From assembly GCA_021201095.1 (NCBI GenBank), contig JAJQFO010000255.1, forward strand, positions 1-38,185: DNA of 38,185 nucleotides, in the 5' to 3' direction. The stretch is from Lachnospiraceae bacterium. Lineage in GTDB: Bacteria > Bacillota > Clostridia > Lachnospirales > Lachnospiraceae. Numbering within the stretch: position 1 is the first letter of the stretch; each line of letters begins with the position of its first letter. Both the position numbers and the translations under genes were made by a program. The notes under the pieces were generated by a model. The model had not been told where the DNA came from and did no database searches. It saw only the letters and a program-made list of their open reading frames with translations. Shown here piece after piece: positions 8,925 through 35,691 of the stretch.

Positions 8925-9027
8925 ATTATGGGAAGAAAACCGCTTCCCATAATGCTCCAGAATCTGGCGATTCTGTCGCTAACTTATCGGGTGAAAGCCC
9001 GCAAGCGCGCTTTCCTTCCGATAAGTT
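8925..9027. repeat. Palindromic element PE-2, copy 1
   Basis: attatgggaag/cttcccataat, cagaat/attctg and aacttatcgg/ccgataagtt stems; copies at 20657-20747 and 34670-34772. Confidence 0.9.
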
Positions 9028-9071
9028 ATATTATAGGAACGCAAGAAAATTAGCAGACAACGGAGGCATTT

Positions 9072-11428: not shown

Positions 11429-11525
11429 ATGAGACCTCTCTTTCTGCGGAATTGAGCTGTCAGTCGTCGGTTTATTGACGGAATACAATAAAATCCTTCT
11501 GGCAGTTCTTTCGCACACGTAGTAT

Positions 11526-11761
11526 TGTATGTCCGTATTCGCTTGCGAGTATGGACGCAGGCAATGTTCCGATTTGCGCAGCAAATCGAGAACGGTACCG
11601 CGCCCCTCGCCGGGGTGGCATCCCGCACTTCGTACGGGATATACCATCGCGCAGCGATTTTTAGTTGCGCGGCTTTCATTGTATGTCCGTACTCGCTTGC
11701 GAGTATGGACGCAGGCCGCGCCAATCGCGCAGCGATTTTTAGTTGCGCGGCTTTCATTGTA
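11526..11761. repeat. Mosaic intergenic repeat (copy B, inverted relative to copy A)
   Basis: Reverse complement shares the ggcgaggggcgcggtaccgttctcgatttgctgcgcaaatcggaacattgcctgcgtccatactc module and others with 1988-2240; carries internal duplicates. Confidence 0.88.
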
Positions 11762-19111: not shown

Positions 19112-19702
19112 ATGATTATTAAAGAAGCAAGCCTTGAGACGGTATGCGGGATTACAAGCAGACTTCCGGAAAATGATAAATGTGAGGTGGCGTTTGCCGG
19201 AAAGTCCAACGTAGGCAAATCCTCCCTGATCAACACGCTGCTGAACCGGAAATCCCTGGCCCGTACCAGCGCACAGCCGGGGAAGACGCAGACGATTAAT
19301 TTTTATAACGTCAACGATCTTCTGTATCTGGTGGATCTCCCAGGGTATGGATATGCGAAGGTTCCCCAGTCGGAAAAAGAAAAATGGGGAAAAATGATTG
19401 AACGGTATCTGCACACCTCCAGGCAGCTGAAAGCAGTTTTCCTGCTGATTGATATCCGGCACGAGCCTGGGGCCAACGACCGCACCATGTATGAGTGGAT
19501 CTGCAGCAACGGCTATGAACCCATCATACTGGCGACCAAGCTGGACAAGATCAAACGCAGCCAGGTACAACACCAGATGAAGCTTCTGCGTGAAGGCCTG
19601 AGCCTTCGCCCCGGCACGGAGATCATTCCTTTTTCCTCCCAGACACGTCAGGGACGAGACGAAACGTGGGCGGAGATTGAAAAAATCTGTTTAATCGAAT
19701 AG
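19112..19702 (+). CDS. engB: Ribosome biogenesis GTP-binding protein YsxC/EngB
   Basis: VAFAGKSNVGKSSLINTLLNRKSLARTSAQPGKTQTINFY, DLPGYGYAKVP, TKLDKI. Confidence 0.96.
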   Translation: MIIKEASLETVCGITSRLPENDKCEVAFAGKSNVGKSSLINTLLNRKSLARTSAQPGKTQTINFYNVNDLLYLVDLPGYGYAKVPQSEKEKWGKMIERYLHTSRQLKAVFLLIDIRHEPGANDRTMYEWICSNGYEPIILATKLDKIKRSQVQHQMKLLREGLSLRPGTEIIPFSSQTRQGRDETWAEIEKICLIE

Positions 19703-20030
19703 GAGGCGGCTTGCCGGCTCCTACTTGTCCGCGCGGTTGCTGTGTGCCAGTGGCACACGTTTAGCCCTCGCCGGGTAGTGCCCCAATCTCTGATTGTGGG
19801 GCGCGGGCATCCCACGCTTCGCATGGGATATTCAACGACCGAAGCGGAGCGTAGATGGGTGCGGCTTTAGCCGCAAAACACCCTCGCCGGGTGGCATCCC
19901 ACGCTTCGCATGGGATATGCCTTGCCCGGTTCTGCTTTTTAATCAGACAGGGGAGGAACCTTCTCCCCTGTCCGCTGCGCGAGCCGGGTGCGGCTTCAGC
20001 CGCAAAAATTCCTTACCCGGCTCTGCGCAT
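19693..20030. repeat. Mosaic intergenic repeat (copy C)
   Basis: aataggaggcggcttgccggctcctacttgtccgcgcggttgctgtgtgccagtggcacacgtttagccctcgccgg... is near-identical to the reverse complement of 26741-26945; also two gcggctt(t/c)agccgc cassettes. Confidence 0.9.
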
Positions 20031-20093
20031 AAAAAAACCCCCCGCTGCCGATAAGAGGGTATCAACAGCGGGGGTAATTTTTGTTTTTACTTT
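20031..20093. terminator. Bidirectional rho-independent terminator between engB and rpsT
   Basis: cccccgctg...cagcgggggtaatttttgttttt; A-tract on the other side gives a U-tract for the minus strand. Confidence 0.8.
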
Positions 20094-20656: not shown

Positions 20657-20747
20657 ATTATGAGAAGAAAACCGCTTCTTATAATGCTCCAGAATCTGGC
20701 GATTCCGTCGCTAACTTATCGGGTGAAAACTCTCCTTCCGATAAGTT
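20657..20747. repeat. Palindromic element PE-2, copy 2 (12 bp shorter internal loop)
   Basis: attatgagaagaaaaccgcttcttataatgctccagaatctggcgattccgtcgctaacttatcgggtgaaaactctccttccgataagtt. Confidence 0.9.
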
Positions 20748-20815
20748 AAATCAGGGAAAACACAGCTGCGCGAGGATACCAGACAGCTGCGAAAAACAGG
20801 AAGAGAGGACTTAAA

Positions 20816-26709: not shown

Positions 26710-26740
26710 AAGCGGTTACTATTCACGGGATGGGGATGAT

Positions 26741-26945
26741 ATCTACGCTTCGCTTCGGTCGTTGAATATCCCATGCGAAGCGTGGAATGCCCGCGCCCCA
26801 CAATCAGAGATTGGGGCTTATCCCGTCCGAAGGACGAGGATGCCACCCCGGCGAGGGGGCATTATCCGGCGAGGGCTAAACGTGTGCCACTGGCACACAG
26901 CAACCGCGCGGCGAGTAGGATTCGGCAAGCCGCCTCCTACTCGAT
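26741..26945. repeat. Mosaic intergenic repeat (copy D), inverted relative to copy C with an extra cassette
   Basis: Reverse complement matches 19693-19856 plus an inserted cassette atgccccctcgccggggtggcatcctcgtccttcggacgggat. Confidence 0.9.
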
Positions 26946-26974
26946 TACATGGGACGCGTAAGGAATTTTCCAGC

Positions 26975-28566: not shown

Positions 28567-28792
28567 GCGATAAGGTGATAAGGCAGCAGAATGAAAGGAA
28601 ATGTCACGCCCAACAATAAAACCCACAAAAAACAACACAAATCTCCAGACAAAAACAACACAACAAACCAAAAAACAGGCACAGAACTCAAAAAAACCAT
28701 CAAAAAATTTTCAAAAACAATCAAAAAAGGTTCCCAAAGCTATATATCTGTGCTACAATGTTCGAAATAGCAGTTTTTGGGGGAATCGTAAG

Positions 28793-30457
28793 ATGAAAAG
28801 ATCAAAGAGAATCGAGGCTCTGGATCAGCGGAAGGTGAATCTGGACGGTTTTATCGATGAGTGGTCGGAAAAAGGATTCGCCGCGATGGACAGTCCTTAT
28901 GATCCGGCGCCGTCCGTCCGGGTTGAGAACGGACGGATCGTGGAGCTGGACGGAAAGAAGCGGGAGGAGTTTGACTTTATTGATCAGTTTATCGCGGATT
29001 ACGCGATGCGCGTGGATCGGGTGGAGCGCTCCATGGCGATGTCTTCCGTAGATATTGCGCGGATGATTGTGGATATTCATGTTTCCAGAGACGAAATTCT
29101 GAAGGTCGTATCCGGCATCACCCCGGCGAAGATGAAAGAGGTCATCAACGAGCTGAACGTGGTCGAGATGATGATGGGCATGCAGAAGATGCGCGCGCGC
29201 CGGGTGCCGGGAAATCAGGCACACATTACGAATTTAAAGGATGACCCGGTACAGCTGGCGGCCGATGCCGCCGAGGGAGCACTCCGAGGCTTCCGCGAGG
29301 AGGAGACGACGATGGGAGTTGCCCGCTACGCGCCCTTCAGTGCGATTGCGCTGCTGATCGGCTCACAGGTGGGCGGACGCGGCGTGCTGACGCAGTGCTC
29401 CGCAGAGGAGGCTACGGAGCTGGAGCTGGGAATTCGCGGTTTTACGACCTATGCGGAGACCCTTTCTGTGTACGGGACGGAGAAGGTATTTATCGACGGC
29501 GATGATACGCCTTATTCCAAGGCTTTCCTGAATTCCGCCTATGCCTCCCGCGGACTGAAGGTGCGTTTTACCTCAGGATCCGGCTCGGAAGCGTTGATGG
29601 GCAGCACGGAAAAGAAATCCATGCTCTATCTGGAGTGCCGCTGCCTGTATATGACGAAGGGAGCAGGCTCTCAGGGGATTCAGAACGGCTCTGTGAGCTG
29701 CATTGGTATTACAGCGAGCGTGCCGGCCGGGATTCGTGAGGTGATGGGCGAAAATCTGGTGGCGGCGCTTCTGGGACTGGAGTGCGCCTCTTCCAATGAC
29801 CAGAGCTTTTCGCATTCGGATATGCGCAGGACGGCGCGGACGATGCTTCAGTTTCTGCCGGGCACGGATTTTATCTTTTCCGGCTATGCGGCGGAGCCCA
29901 ATTATGACAATATGTTTGCCGGGTCCAATTTTGACGCGGAGGACTTTGACGATTACAACGTGATGCAGAGAGACATGCAGGTGGACGGTGGCCTGCGGCC
30001 GGTGACGGAGGAAGATGTAATCCGTGTGCGGCGCAGGGCGGCCAAAGCCGTGCAGGCAGTTTTTTCGTACCTGCATGTGGCGGAAGTGACGGACGAGCAG
30101 GTGGAGGCTGTGACCTACGCGCACGGCAGCAAGGATACGCTGGACCGGGATGTGGTAGCAGATCTGATGGGTGTGGAGGATCTGATGAAGCGCGGCATCA
30201 CGGGCGTGGATGTGGTGAAGGCGCTCGCGGAGACCGGCTATGAGGACGTGGCAGAAAGTGTCCTGAACATGCTCCGGCAGCGGGTTATCGGCGATTATAT
30301 GCAGACCGCGGCGATCCTGGATGAAGACTTCCACGTGATGAGCGGTGTAAATACGCCGAATGATTACATGGGCCCGGGGACTGGGTACCGGGTGAACGGC
30401 GCGCGTTGGGAAGAAATCAAAAAGATCCCGCACAGGATTGACCGGAATAATTTCTAA
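28793..30457 (+). CDS. pduC: B12-dependent propanediol/glycerol dehydratase large subunit (ORF-track start at 28601 rejected)
   Basis: MKRSKRIEALDQRKVNLDGFIDEWSEKGFAAMDSPYDPAPS...MMMGMQKMRARRVPGNQAHITN...TSGSGSEALMG. Confidence 0.97.
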   Translation: MKRSKRIEALDQRKVNLDGFIDEWSEKGFAAMDSPYDPAPSVRVENGRIVELDGKKREEFDFIDQFIADYAMRVDRVERSMAMSSVDIARMIVDIHVSRDEILKVVSGITPAKMKEVINELNVVEMMMGMQKMRARRVPGNQAHITNLKDDPVQLAADAAEGALRGFREEETTMGVARYAPFSAIALLIGSQVGGRGVLTQCSAEEATELELGIRGFTTYAETLSVYGTEKVFIDGDDTPYSKAFLNSAYASRGLKVRFTSGSGSEALMGSTEKKSMLYLECRCLYMTKGAGSQGIQNGSVSCIGITASVPAGIREVMGENLVAALLGLECASSNDQSFSHSDMRRTARTMLQFLPGTDFIFSGYAAEPNYDNMFAGSNFDAEDFDDYNVMQRDMQVDGGLRPVTEEDVIRVRRRAAKAVQAVFSYLHVAEVTDEQVEAVTYAHGSKDTLDRDVVADLMGVEDLMKRGITGVDVVKALAETGYEDVAESVLNMLRQRVIGDYMQTAAILDEDFHVMSGVNTPNDYMGPGTGYRVNGARWEEIKKIPHRIDRNNF

Positions 30458-30470
30458 GGAGGACACGGAT

Positions 30471-31346
30471 ATGGAAGTAAATGAAGCACTGGTCCGGCAG
30501 ATTACGGAAGCAGTCGTCCGTGAACTCCAGACGAGGGATTACGGTGGGAAAAGTGGGACTGCTGACGGCAATGGAGCCGGAGTGGCAAGTCGAACTGTTG
30601 GCGGCAGTGGAGCCGGAGGGACAAGTGGAACAGCTGGCGGCAGTGGAACCGGGACAAAAAGCGGAATGGCTGGCGGCAGTATAGCCGCGGCAGGAAGCGA
30701 TAACGACAAAAGTGAAAATAGCAGTAATGAGAATGGCACAATCAGGAATTACTGGGGCGAAATAGTAACAACCGCCCGCCCGGATGAAAATGAAACCGCA
30801 CTTCCGAATAAAATAGATTATCATGGTTACCCGCAGGCGAAGCAGGGAACGGACCCGAAGGAGGTCGTGATCGGTGTGGGCGCTGCCTTTGGCACCGTGA
30901 TCAAACATACGATCACCGGCATCCCGGTCGACAAGGTGATCAAGGCCATTATCGCCGGGATCGAGGAGGAAGGGATGACCGCGCGGGTGGTCAAAAACCT
31001 GAAGACTTCGGACGTCTGCTTTATCGGCCTTGAGGCCGCGAAGCTGAGCGGCTCCGGCTTTGGGATCGGCCTGCAGTCGAAGGGGACGGCGGTCATTCAT
31101 CACAAGGCTCTTTATCCGCTCTCCAATCTCGAACTGTTTCCCCAGGCGCCGCAGATGACGCTGGAGACTTACTTCGCGATCGGAAAAAATGCGGCAAGGT
31201 ATGTAAAGGGTGAAAAGGTAGTGCCGGTGCCTGGCACAAATGACCCGATGGTGCGGGCGAAATACCAGGTAAAGGCGGCACTGATGCATATCCGCGAGAC
31301 AGATCAGATCTGTCCGGAGCTGAATATCATTGAATGGACGGTGTGA
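30471..31346 (+). CDS. pduD: Propanediol/glycerol dehydratase medium subunit
   Basis: MEVNEALVRQITEAVVREL; EVVIGVGAAFGTVIKHTITGIP...AGIEEEGMTARVVK...SNLELFPQAPQMTLETYFAIGKNAARYVKG. Confidence 0.96.
   Translation: MEVNEALVRQITEAVVRELQTRDYGGKSGTADGNGAGVASRTVGGSGAGGTSGTAGGSGTGTKSGMAGGSIAAAGSDNDKSENSSNENGTIRNYWGEIVTTARPDENETALPNKIDYHGYPQAKQGTDPKEVVIGVGAAFGTVIKHTITGIPVDKVIKAIIAGIEEEGMTARVVKNLKTSDVCFIGLEAAKLSGSGFGIGLQSKGTAVIHHKALYPLSNLELFPQAPQMTLETYFAIGKNAARYVKGEKVVPVPGTNDPMVRAKYQVKAALMHIRETDQICPELNIIEWTV
30549..30698. repeat. In-frame 36-bp (12-aa) tandem repeat within pduD
   Basis: GAGVASRTVGGS / GAGGTSGTAGGS / GTGTKSGMAGGS, with a partial unit before and after. Confidence 0.9.
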
Positions 31347-31350
31347 GAGT

Positions 31351-31743
31351 ATGGCATATCCTTTAGGAGAGCATGAGGCGGAGCGAATCACCTCAAGAAC
31401 AGGAAAAAAGTTATCTGAGATTACGCTGGAAGAAGTCCGGAACGGCAATATCACCGCCGATGATATTAAGATTTCGCAGGAGACGCTGGCCGCGCAGGGA
31501 GCGGTGTGCAGAGAACATGACAATCCGGCCATGGATGAGAATTTCGTGCGCGCGTCGGAGATGGTAAATATTCCGGATGATGTGATCCTGAAAATGTATA
31601 ATCAGCTGCGGCCCAACCGTTCCACAAAGCTGGAGCTGGTGCAGATGGCGCAGACCCTGCTGGAGCAGTATCACGCGTCGCACTGCGCGAAGCTGGTGCT
31701 GGACGCGGCGGAGATTTATGAAAAACGAGGGATTTTACTGTAA
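31351..31743 (+). CDS. pduE: Propanediol/glycerol dehydratase small subunit
   Basis: YPLGEHEAERITSRTGKKLSEITLEEVRNGNITADDIKISQETLAAQ...RPNRSTKLELVQMAQTLLEQYHA. Confidence 0.96.
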   Translation: MAYPLGEHEAERITSRTGKKLSEITLEEVRNGNITADDIKISQETLAAQGAVCREHDNPAMDENFVRASEMVNIPDDVILKMYNQLRPNRSTKLELVQMAQTLLEQYHASHCAKLVLDAAEIYEKRGILL

Positions 31744-31926
31744 AGAAGTCCTTAATCGTAATAGTCATCAGGCTAATGTTTTTGATTTGCAATGGATTTG
31801 CAGTGTGAACTGGGATTAAGAGTGGTGCAGTGAAAAACATTGCGTGGCCATTTGCAGCCAAGGACCCGGCGGCATACACGGTGCCTGGCCTGCTGTTTTG
31901 TGAGAATAAAGGAACACGGTGGAAGT

Positions 31927-33936
31927 ATGGACATCAGGACGGTTGCGGGGATCGACATCGGAAATTCGACAACGGAAGTGTGCATCGGCACGTTTGACGA
32001 GAAGGGCAGACTCACCTTTCACGCCAGTGCCCGGACTCTGACGACCGGTACCAAGGGGACACCGGAAAATGTGCGTGGAATCCGCACGGCGTTGGAGATG
32101 GCGGTGGAAAAGACCGGGCCGCACCGGATTTATCCGGATGTGCTGCTGCTCAACGAGGCAGCGCCCGTGATCGGGGACACGGCCATGGAGACCATCACTG
32201 AGACCATTATTATGGAATCCTCTATGATCGGGCACAATCCATCCACTCCGGCGGGCGTCGGACAGGCAGTGGGAGAGATTATCCGCATTGATCATCTTTC
32301 CCGGGCGATTCCCGGGAAAAACTACATCGTGACGGTTCCGAAGGAGGTTTCCTACGAGACGGCAGCTTCGCAGCTGAACGCGGCATGGGACCAGATCCGG
32401 ATGACCGGGGCGATCCTGCAGCGCGACGAGGCCGTTCTGGTATACAATCGCCTGCGCCACAAGATTCCGATCCTGGATGAGGTGGCGAAGCTGGAGCAGA
32501 TTCCGGAATTCCGGATGGCCGCCATCGAGGTGGCGCCGGCGGGGCAGACGATCCGCATGCTTTCGAATCCGTATGGGATTGCGACTTTGCTGGATCTGAA
32601 CGCGGATGAGACCCGTCAGGTAATGCCGATTGCCAAGAGCCTGATCGGGAAAAGAAGCGCGGTAGTCATCCGTACGCCCGGAGGCAATGTCCGGGAGCAG
32701 ACGATCCCTGCCGGGGAAATTTACATCAGCGGGGAGCGTAAAACAAGTGTACAGATTGACGCGGGCGCGGAAAAAATCATGGAAGCTGTTCATGAGGCGG
32801 GCGTGATCACAGACGTGGACGGCCAGGAGAACAGCAACGTGGGAAATATGCTGCGGCGGATTAAAAGCGGTATGCACCGCGTTTCCGGCCAGCAGCCGGA
32901 AAACATTCGCATCACCGATATTCTGGCGGTCGATACGCTGGCTCCCGTGCGGATTTCTGGTGCGCTGGCGGACGAGACCTGTATGGAAAAAGCCGTCGGC
33001 GTGGCCGCGATGGTCAAGACCAGCCGGCTGCCGATGCAGGAGATTGCCGATCTGCTTAGCGAGGAGATGGGGATTCCCGCGCGCGTAGCCGGTGTGGAGG
33101 CAGTCATGGCTTCCATGGGAGCGCTGACGACTCCCGGGACAAAGCTTCCGCTGGCGATTCTTGATATGGGAGGCGGCTCGACAGACGCCGCACTGGTGAC
33201 GGAGGATGGCAAAGTGACAGTCACTCACCAGGCGGGAGCCGGTGAGCTGGTGACGATGCTGATTCAGACGGAGCTTGGCCTGCACAGCCGCATGACGGCA
33301 GAACGGATCAAACGTTCGCCGCTGGCAAAGGTTGAGAGTCTGTTTCATATCCGGCTGGAGAGCGGAGAAATCCGCTTTTTCGAGGAGCCTCTGGATCCGC
33401 GGCTGTTTGGGTGTGTGGTGCTGCTGGAACAGAAGAAATCGATGGACAGGGATGGAGCATATGCTGCCGGGACGAATTCCACGGGGGCATATACCGCAGG
33501 GGCGAATTCGGCAGGGGGAAACATCACAGGTATGAATTCCACTGGAGCCTATACTACAGGGACAAATTCTGCGGGAGCAGGTCAGTCTTCCCAAGAAACA
33601 TCGGATTCCTGGGAAATGGTGCGGATCGAGGAGGATCTGACACTCGAGCGCATCGCGGATGTGCGCCGCGAGGCTAAGCGAAAGGTGTTTGTGACAAATG
33701 CGCTGCGGGCGCTGGAAAGCATCGCGCCGGATCATGACCTGCGGAAGGTGCCGAATGTAGTACTGGTCGGCGGGTCTGCAGAGGATTTTGAGATTCCTGA
33801 GCTGCTTTTAGAGGAGCTTTCTAAATACCGGGTACTCTGCGGCCGTGGAAACATCCGCAAAACAGAAGGACCGCGCAATGCGGTGGCGACAGGACTGGTG
33901 ATGTCCTGGTGGGGGAATCGTCATGGAAATGAATAA
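31927..33936 (+). CDS. ddrA: Diol/glycerol dehydratase reactivase large subunit
   Basis: VAGIDIGNSTTEVCIGTF...ILDMGGGSTDAALV...HQAGAGELVTMLI...VLVGGSAEDFEIPELLLEEL. Confidence 0.95.
   Translation: MDIRTVAGIDIGNSTTEVCIGTFDEKGRLTFHASARTLTTGTKGTPENVRGIRTALEMAVEKTGPHRIYPDVLLLNEAAPVIGDTAMETITETIIMESSMIGHNPSTPAGVGQAVGEIIRIDHLSRAIPGKNYIVTVPKEVSYETAASQLNAAWDQIRMTGAILQRDEAVLVYNRLRHKIPILDEVAKLEQIPEFRMAAIEVAPAGQTIRMLSNPYGIATLLDLNADETRQVMPIAKSLIGKRSAVVIRTPGGNVREQTIPAGEIYISGERKTSVQIDAGAEKIMEAVHEAGVITDVDGQENSNVGNMLRRIKSGMHRVSGQQPENIRITDILAVDTLAPVRISGALADETCMEKAVGVAAMVKTSRLPMQEIADLLSEEMGIPARVAGVEAVMASMGALTTPGTKLPLAILDMGGGSTDAALVTEDGKVTVTHQAGAGELVTMLIQTELGLHSRMTAERIKRSPLAKVESLFHIRLESGEIRFFEEPLDPRLFGCVVLLEQKKSMDRDGAYAAGTNSTGAYTAGANSAGGNITGMNSTGAYTTGTNSAGAGQSSQETSDSWEMVRIEEDLTLERIADVRREAKRKVFVTNALRALESIAPDHDLRKVPNVVLVGGSAEDFEIPELLLEELSKYRVLCGRGNIRKTEGPRNAVATGLVMSWWGNRHGNE
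33454..33573. repeat. In-frame 30-bp (10-aa) tandem repeat within ddrA, four units
   Basis: GAYAAGTNST / GAYTAGANSA / GGNITGMNST / GAYTTGTNSA. Confidence 0.9.
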
Positions 33937-34255
33937 ACCGGCTGTTCATTTGTATACAACAGACGAGCATCTGCCCTCTTTGCCTGAGATCTGCGCAGGT
34001 CTGGAAGAAGAAGGCGTGCCGTGGAAGCTGATACAAACAGAAGGAAGCGCGGAAGAGCTGGCCTGGCGTGCCGCGCAGGATTCTGTGCTGGAGACTGGAA
34101 TCGGAGTGACTAGGCAGGCTGCGGCACTGCAGATCAGCCGCGTGCCAAAGGAACGTCCGGTATTTCTCTTTGCAAATCCGACCGCAGACCAGAGCCGGGC
34201 ATTGGGAACGAACGCCGCCAGAGCGGTGAAGAAAAGACGGTTTGTAGAAACGTAG
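33923..34255 (+). CDS. ddrB: Diol/glycerol dehydratase reactivase small subunit
   Basis: Overlaps the ddrA 3' end; PAVHLYTTDE...CAGLEEEGVPWKL...AQDSVLETGIGVTRQAAALQISRVPKERPVF. Confidence 0.92.
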   Translation: MEMNKPAVHLYTTDEHLPSLPEICAGLEEEGVPWKLIQTEGSAEELAWRAAQDSVLETGIGVTRQAAALQISRVPKERPVFLFANPTADQSRALGTNAARAVKKRRFVET

Positions 34256-34270
34256 AGGCGCAGAAGTGCA

Positions 34271-34350
34271 GAAGCGTAAAAGTGCAGAAATATAGAGAGA
34301 TAGAAGCATAAAAGTGCAGAAGTATAGAGGTATTGAAGCATAGAGACAAG
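34271..34350. repeat. 32-bp tandem repeat, about 2.5 copies, in the ddrB-pduO spacer
   Basis: gaagcgtaaaagtgcagaaatatagagagata / gaagcataaaagtgcagaagtatagaggtatt / gaagcatagaga. Confidence 0.8.
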
Positions 34351-34434: not shown

Positions 34435-35691
34435 GTGAAAATTTATACCAAAACAGGCGACCGAATGACGACCGGACTCCTAGACGGGACGCGGGTATCC
34501 AAGCATGATGAACGCATTCATCTTCTTGGAAACATCGACGAACTGAACAGCCAGCTCGGCGTGGTAAAGAGCCTCACGGCGGAACCGGCGCGGAAGGAAG
34601 AGCTTTCCGGCATCCAGAGAATGCTGATGAGGATCATGTCCGGAATTGCGGACGCTTCACAATCAGGAGATTATGAGAAGAAAACCGCTTCTCATAATCC
34701 TCCAGAATCTGGCGATTCTGTCGCTAACTTATCGGTTCCGAGTACGCAAGCGTCCTCTCCTTCCGATAAGTTAAACTATCAGGTGGATGCAGCTTCCATT
34801 GCGCATCTGGAGGCAGAGATTGACCGCATGGAATCTGCTTTTGAGCGGATAAAAGACTTTGTTCTGCCTGGCGGCTCCTTTTATTCCGCCCAGATTGATG
34901 TGGCGAGGACCGTGACCAGACGCTGCGAGCGCTGGTTCGCCCAGGTGGCGGAAGAATATCCCATGGATACAGAGGCAGCCCGTTACCTGAACCGTCTTTC
35001 TGATTACCTGTATGTACTGGCCCGGTATGTGGATGCTTCTGATCAGGAACAGACACAGCAGACGCCTGGAGCAGAACATTCACTTGAAGGGCAATCTTTG
35101 GGCGATTCTTTATCGATAGAGCAAAAAGACATAAAAGCCATAAAAGACACAAAAGACATAAAAGACATAAAAGATATAAAAGACGCAATAGGTGCAAAAG
35201 ATTCATCAGATAAAAAAATCGCCCTTACTGCGGAAAGAGCACAACAGGCTGTTGACCGGCTCCACAGGCAGATCAATAATTCCTGCGGGACATTCTATAC
35301 CTTCTGCGTCTGTGACGCCGAGGGAAAGCAGCTGGCGACAAACGCGCTGGCGCATTATTCAGTGGCTGTCTTTGAGGCACAGCGTTCCGCCACGAACGCG
35401 CTCCTGCGGGCTGCCAGAGCTGCTGTGGGGACAGGAGCAGATGCTGCGTCAGGGCAGACAGCAACATTCGGCTCAATCTCAACGTCAGGGCAGACCGTGT
35501 TATCTGCGCCGATAGCAGCACCAGGCCAACTGGCGGCAGCAGGATCAGCTGCGGTACCAGAAGATGGAGGAGCCGCTATATACATTCAGGGCCAGCTGAC
35601 CGGCAGCGTGGGCGTGTATGGCTCATACAAAAAAGACATAAATGAAAAAGCACAGATGCTGCTGGATTTGCTTTGTTTTACTGGAAGGTAA
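34435..35691 (+). CDS. pduO: PduO-type cob(I)alamin adenosyltransferase with long C-terminal extension (GTG start likely)
   Basis: MKIYTKTGDRMTTGLLDGTRVSKHDERIHLLGNIDELNSQLG...IDRMESAFERIKDFVLPGGSFYSAQIDVARTVTRRCERW...RYLNRLSDYLYVLARY. Confidence 0.92.
   Translation: MKIYTKTGDRMTTGLLDGTRVSKHDERIHLLGNIDELNSQLGVVKSLTAEPARKEELSGIQRMLMRIMSGIADASQSGDYEKKTASHNPPESGDSVANLSVPSTQASSPSDKLNYQVDAASIAHLEAEIDRMESAFERIKDFVLPGGSFYSAQIDVARTVTRRCERWFAQVAEEYPMDTEAARYLNRLSDYLYVLARYVDASDQEQTQQTPGAEHSLEGQSLGDSLSIEQKDIKAIKDTKDIKDIKDIKDAIGAKDSSDKKIALTAERAQQAVDRLHRQINNSCGTFYTFCVCDAEGKQLATNALAHYSVAVFEAQRSATNALLRAARAAVGTGADAASGQTATFGSISTSGQTVLSAPIAAPGQLAAAGSAAVPEDGGAAIYIQGQLTGSVGVYGSYKKDINEKAQMLLDLLCFTGR
34670..34772. 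repeat. Palindromic element PE-2, copy 3, inserted in frame in pduO
   Basis: attatgagaagaaaaccgcttctcataatcctccagaatctggcgattctgtcgctaacttatcgg...ccgataagtt inside the adenosyltransferase domain. Confidence 0.92.
35125..35187. repeat. 9-bp in-frame tandem repeat (seven units) in pduO
   Basis: aaagacata-type units encoding KDI KAI KDT KDI KDI KDI KDA. Confidence 0.92.
35446..35553. repeat. 36-bp degenerate in-frame repeat (three units) in pduO
   Basis: ASGQTATFGSIS / TSGQTVLSAPIA / APGQLAAAGSAA. Confidence 0.7.

Follow-up and report, generated by a model that had tools for sequence, protein, structure and literature searches.

A probable non-autonomous mobile hairpin element inserted in frame within protein genes of a Lachnospiraceae genus

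Until now, translated selfish palindromes have mostly been regarded as peculiar to Rickettsiales endosymbionts, which have reduced genomes. In Wolbachia, palindromic repeats in protein genes (Wolbachia palindromic elements, WPE) were reportedly described by Ogata in 2005. The Rickettsia palindromic elements (RPE; Ogata et al. 2000, 2002) are hairpin repeats of 105-146 nt, which occur between genes and in frame within unrelated functional genes (PMC2229807, PMC10969869). They encode a conserved extra peptide, which is tolerated, as the gmk product is still active (reviewed in PMC2229807). ERIC/RU and Correia (NEMIS) are short non-autonomous elements with ORFs fused in frame with genes (PMC2229807), REPIN-RAYT and GTAG/CGTC REPs are moved by Y1 transposases (PMC3116915, PMC3733652), and the coding palindromes of nematomorph mitochondria are perfect, translated inverted repeats within mitochondrial genes (PMC6649704).

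The window (the whole stretch of DNA analysed, 38,185 nucleotides) contains a pduO-type gene, which is apparently the last gene of a complete diol-dehydratase operon with three dehydratase and both reactivase subunits (Table 1). The gene starts with GTG just after an AAAGGAG ribosome-binding site, and its stop lies at 35691. According to the initial annotation, this ORF contains a palindromic repeat that is shared with intergenic sites at 8925 and 20657 and leaves the frame unbroken, and both points were confirmed. The pduO ORF translates through the element (34670-34773) as DYEKKTASHNPPESGDSVANLSVPSTQASSPSDKL, and alignment with the insert-free homologues of two sister species (G008, G016) gave a difference of exactly 105 nt, corresponding to residues 79-113. 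The empty sites read ...CAATCAGGAAGCTATCAGG..., and the filled site reads CAATCAGGAG-ATTATG...GTTA-AACTATCAGG. Outside the insert, the adenosyltransferase domains of G008 and G016 were 94% and 89% identical to that of the window. Within the genus, PduO proteins that are more distant also lack the segment and have the short loop that had been supposed for normal family members; the solved ATR structures also have a short loop there, and the PDB alignments were split around the insert.

Table 1. Features of the window and in-frame element copies in other genes of the genus
Feature	Location	Strand	Evidence or remark
pduO-type cob(I)alamin adenosyltransferase gene with insertion	34435..35691	+	418 aa; Cob_adeno_trans (PF01923), E 4.8e-48, residues 3-199
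Insertion, 105 nt, codons 79-113 (DYEK...SDKL)	34669..34773	+	absent from two sister-species orthologues, L174 (G008) and L173 (G016)
Hairpin A: ATTATGAGAAG-AAAACCG-CTTCTCATAAT	34670..34698	+	fold z -7.0; 3 compensatory pairs across copies
Hairpin B: CAGAATC-TGGC-GATTCTG, nearly invariant	34703..34720	+	8925 copy folds likewise
Hairpin C: TAACTTATCGG ... CCGATAAGTTA, covarying inner stem	34725..34773	+	both partners changed in 3 outer and 5 inner pairs
Right flank AACTAT, imperfect repeat of left GATTAT and empty site AGCTAT	34774..34779	+	empty-site comparison; genus-wide repeat correlation
Intergenic element copy, 87% identical to pduO copy	8925..9028	+	sequence comparison
Intergenic element copy, 83% identical to pduO copy, hairpin C shortened	20657..20750	+	sequence comparison
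Diol/glycerol dehydratase large, medium and small subunits; reactivase large and small (PduH-like) subunits	28601..34255	+	PF02286, PF02288, PF02287, PF08841/PF18427, PF02288
CxxCxxCC metal-binding protein	G013		in-frame element, Pfam support
Exonuclease	G013		in-frame element, Pfam support
Topoisomerase III tail	G013 (L156 818-3334)		in-frame element, Pfam support
Sortase tail	G011		in-frame element, Pfam support
APH/CotS-like kinase, two copies	G012 (L164)		in frame; Pfam match just below curated cut-off
OppD tail	G012		in-frame element, Pfam support
AAA-ATPase/PDDEXK_9	G018		in-frame element, Pfam support
GH36 alpha-galactosidase N-domain, tandem copy	G017		in-frame element, Pfam support
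Anaerobic ribonucleotide reductase NrdD	G014, G009		in-frame element, Pfam support
Serine aminopeptidase S33-type hydrolase	L101		65-nt partial copy, in frame, Pfam support
2-Hydroxyacyl-CoA-dehydratase-activator type, 1596-aa ORF	G020		recognised from sequence, without Pfam scan
ABC transporter tail	G015		recognised from sequence, without Pfam scan

The repeat folds strongly, but it is not a single palindrome and consists of three successive hairpins. In an alignment of 30 copies, 96.7% of the pair cells were paired, and 11 pairs had changed on both sides; shuffles gave 3.7 such pairs and slid controls 1-3. Shuffles can be exceeded by related copies even without structure, while slid controls preserve the relatedness; of the measures, those based on counts of pairs or of types are robust. 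Judged from sequence alone, the structure is under strong compensatory covariation. Selection on DNA, selection on RNA and repair that re-perfects the palindrome cannot be distinguished.

The host genome gave 40 matches to the element at E<=1e-3, about 25 of them substantial copies and the rest fragments; together with the fold z-score of -7 this is far beyond chance. Of the two intergenic copies of the window, one is flanked by a tRNA gene and a PLP-lyase gene, and the other is located upstream of the gene for a Cys/Met PLP enzyme. Copies were found in 23 of 47 genomes of the same genus. In an order-wide sample of 392 genomes, with two candidates scored per genome, the host alone had a credible match, and no copy was found in the viral and plasmid collections. 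Matches to a 21-nt core pattern in GTDB representative genomes were confined to Lachnospiraceae/Clostridiales MAGs. Within the samples searched, the element is specific to one Lachnospiraceae genus. The window also carries large mosaics built from other hairpin modules, with long mutual inverted copies (1984-2350, 11520-11761, 19690-20040 and 26740-26950), and on other contigs long forms of the element occur whose hairpin C contains modules similar to those of the mosaics.

The initial annotation had also proposed a search for copies within the coding sequences of relatives. Using tblastn and nhmmer over the genus, in-frame copies were identified in at least 12 further, unrelated protein genes, so that the element interrupts 13 genes including pduO. 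In most of these the copy lies within or next to Pfam domains. For pduO, the exonuclease (in G017), the activator-type gene (six species compared) and NrdD (several species), there were exact or codon-exact empty sites with a length difference of 105 nt. In the topoisomerase III of G017 and the NrdD of G011 the middle of the insert was deleted in frame and its ends were still recognisable; these are relics. The count of 13 leaves out a HisC-like ORF (G027:C70), an ORF beside an aldo/keto reductase (L148), a SpaA-like ORF (L099), L117, L126 and L128, an ORF of low complexity, all of which were classed as upstream fusions or unsupported ORFs. As further observations, the two element copies of the G012 kinase are nested or in tandem in one reading frame, and in the topoisomerase III of G013 the in-frame copy is followed by sequence like a long-form module (CTCCGGTCGGTGCTAAACGG...), which is also in the reading frame.

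In all 13 genes the element lies in sense orientation and in one and the same of the six frames. Among 63 distinct full-length copies, 54 have this frame (xYEKKTASHNAPESGDSVANLS...) open, 37 the next sense frame and none the third; the three antisense frames are open in 9, 2 and 11 copies. The used frame is hydrophilic (GRAVY about -1.0) and the next one hydrophobic (+0.3). If any open frame were equally acceptable, we infer from these counts that the chance of finding 13 of 13 genes in the used frame would be about (54/113)^13 = 7e-5. In an unselected set of 66 copies, collected with the 21-nt DNA pattern, seven lay in the used frame of an ORF with 200 aa or more, six of these with a recognisable protein; the in-gene fraction of 6-7 of 66 is a sampled figure. 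No antisense copy was found within a credible gene body. This includes the long antisense ORFs at L099, L117 and L126, which were rejected because the element lay only in the leader or the ORF was unsupported. The unit measured 105 nt in 47 of the 63 copies and 104 nt in 11, and 104-nt copies were absent from the 13 genes. Full-length intragenic copies had 105 nt, except the one in the G015 ABC transporter tail with 141 nt, which is divisible by three. From the conservation of the frame, without transcript or protein evidence, we infer that the insert is translated as a hydrophilic loop of about 35 residues, and the frame bias is ascribed, likewise by inference, to selective filtering.

The base before the left ATTATG was the same as that before the right ATTA in 43 of 47 copies (tandems excluded), while 25.5 were expected and the maximum in 20,000 shuffles was 36. 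These figures suggest that an NATTA-like target may be duplicated at insertion, in keeping with an element of 100 nt and a duplication of 5 nt. A 5-bp target duplication remains unproven because the left and right repeats are often imperfect; in pduO they are GATTA and AACTA, with AGCTA at the empty site. The AACTAT on the right of the pduO insert is a probable target-site duplication on this comparison. Terminal inverted repeats are absent, the left end reading TGNGAAG.. and the complement of the right end TAACTTATCGG.

With a probability of roughly 0.87, we regard the repeat as a non-autonomous mobile hairpin element of one Lachnospiraceae genus that is translated as a tolerated insert within genes. 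It would insert at or near NATTA-like sites, and each insertion would add about 100 nt of element and a 5-bp target duplication; this gain of 105 nt makes the length frame-neutral. Within genes a copy would survive only if it is in sense orientation, uses the sole frame that combines a hydrophilic product with the absence of stops, and is placed in a surface loop, a linker or a tail, where it would be translated as a tolerated insert of about 35 residues. The insertion history, the in-frame placement, the frame bias, the structural covariation and the restriction to the genus were demonstrated by the data; the transposition chemistry is inferred, and no mobilising enzyme was identified.

If the 35-residue segment were instead an ancestral protein loop that was lost in some species, its likeness to the intergenic repeats would be secondary. 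This is formally possible only for a single gene, but 13 unrelated proteins contain the segment, as do intergenic regions, at 80-98% DNA identity, and it is missing both from the two nearest outgroups and from all the PduO proteins that are more distant. A segment common to distant homologues, which the initial annotation had named as a refuting case, was not met with in any of them. Taken together, the empty sites and the intergenic copies refute the ancestral loop, to which we give virtually no credence. A second refuting case named there, a pduO pseudogene, was not upheld either: the Pfam match is full, and the dN/dS of 0.064 over the adenosyltransferase domain (window gene against G008) indicates that pduO is under purifying selection. 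That the insertions in general mark pseudogenes or assembly errors is made conceivable by the fact that the named genomes are metagenome-assembled, and the excluded HisC-like (G027) and L128 ORFs may be upstream fusions. It is nevertheless very improbable, considering the dN/dS of 0.035 for the NrdD flanks, the ORFs, which run without interruption for up to 1596 aa, and the recurrence of the element across genomes of many separately named assemblies.

The peptide would never be made if the element were removed from the mRNA like an intron or IStron, or were skipped by the ribosome as a bypassing element. The strong conserved RNA fold would fit this, and the translational bypass elements of yeast mitochondria are palindromic (PMC6649704). 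However, neither process needs an open frame or a length divisible by three, whereas one frame was free of stops in 13 of 13 intragenic copies and the insertions with exact empty sites measured 105 nt. In addition, only tRNAs exceeded the gathering score in an Rfam 15 scan of the window, and the element had no match, neither to an intron nor to a ribozyme. We therefore consider removal or skipping decidedly improbable. Mobilisation as a REPIN-type repeat by a Y1/RAYT transposase is suggested by the short hairpin architecture, the high copy number and the mostly extragenic location, but it too is improbable, since PF01797 did not co-vary with the element: the family was absent from the element-rich genomes G008, G016, G027 and G006 and present in the element-free genomes G024, G031 and G036.

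The NrdD insert occupies an identical codon in G014 (L157), with the relic in its close relative G011 (L187), and in G009 (L159), the NrdD flanks of which group with the insert-free G020, G021 and G019. Each of the two clades includes members with empty sites. The inserts of G014 and G009 differ at 11 of 102 sites (dS 0.16), and the dS of the flanks is about 1. This patchy distribution over two clades is not explained by simple vertical inheritance; recombination, recurrent insertion at one site and constraint at the nucleotide level all remain open. In NrdD both outer hairpin arms match the unusual flanks (GTTC/GAAC and GCGCC/GGCGC). Among the copies with variant left flanks, four have a flank that matches their internal arm (GTTA/TAAC twice, ACTA/TAGT and GTTC/GAAC), but some do not. 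That base pairing between target and hairpin arms guides insertion, with homing-like re-entry into the same codon in different lineages, is a tentative and rather unlikely proposal.

The resemblance to RPE noted in the initial annotation holds for the behaviour, as both are dispersed hairpin repeats that also lie between genes and are inserted in frame in several unrelated conserved genes with insert-free orthologues; this likeness is not evidence of common descent. RPE are one palindrome with terminal inverted repeats, whereas the Lachnospiraceae element has three successive hairpins and termini that are not inverted repeats. The element also differs in its host, a Firmicutes gut anaerobe of a different phylum with genomes of 2-5.6 Mb, and in its net gain of 105 nt, its target-duplication-like repeat and its use of one frame only. 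Kinship in sequence is unlikely given the confinement of the 21-nt core pattern to Lachnospiraceae/Clostridiales MAGs, although RPE sequences were not compared directly. With WPE, for which no sequence comparison was made either, the element shares the occurrence of a palindromic repeat in protein genes, but the hosts of WPE are Rickettsiales. ERIC/RU and Correia elements differ by their terminal inverted repeats with TA at the termini and by their occurrence in enterobacteria and Neisseria, and classical MITEs differ from the element in that it lacks terminal inverted repeats. REPIN-RAYT and GTAG/CGTC REPs are similarly short, structured, multi-copy and non-autonomous, but the element does not co-occur with Y1 transposases; the nematomorph palindromes do not form a dispersed element family. 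An equivalent in clostridia or Lachnospiraceae was not found in the open-access literature, in agreement with the initial annotation.

An independent and still recognisable family in one genus of gut Firmicutes suggests that the insertion of short repeats is a recurrent bacterial route to new protein loops and linkers. As filled sites, exact empty sites and in-frame relics are available for the same genes across 47 species, the fate of the inserts (tolerance, erosion or co-option) is directly testable.

Other repeats were observed in and near the operon. The PduO linker contains a 9-nt tandem repeat (KDIKDIKD...) at 35115-35213, which is diverged and three codons shorter in G008. Two 32-nt repeats lie close upstream of pduO (34270-34333), and the medium subunit of the dehydratase has, in its N-terminal extension, four 36-nt tandem repeats (30542-30685) with a unit of 12 residues.
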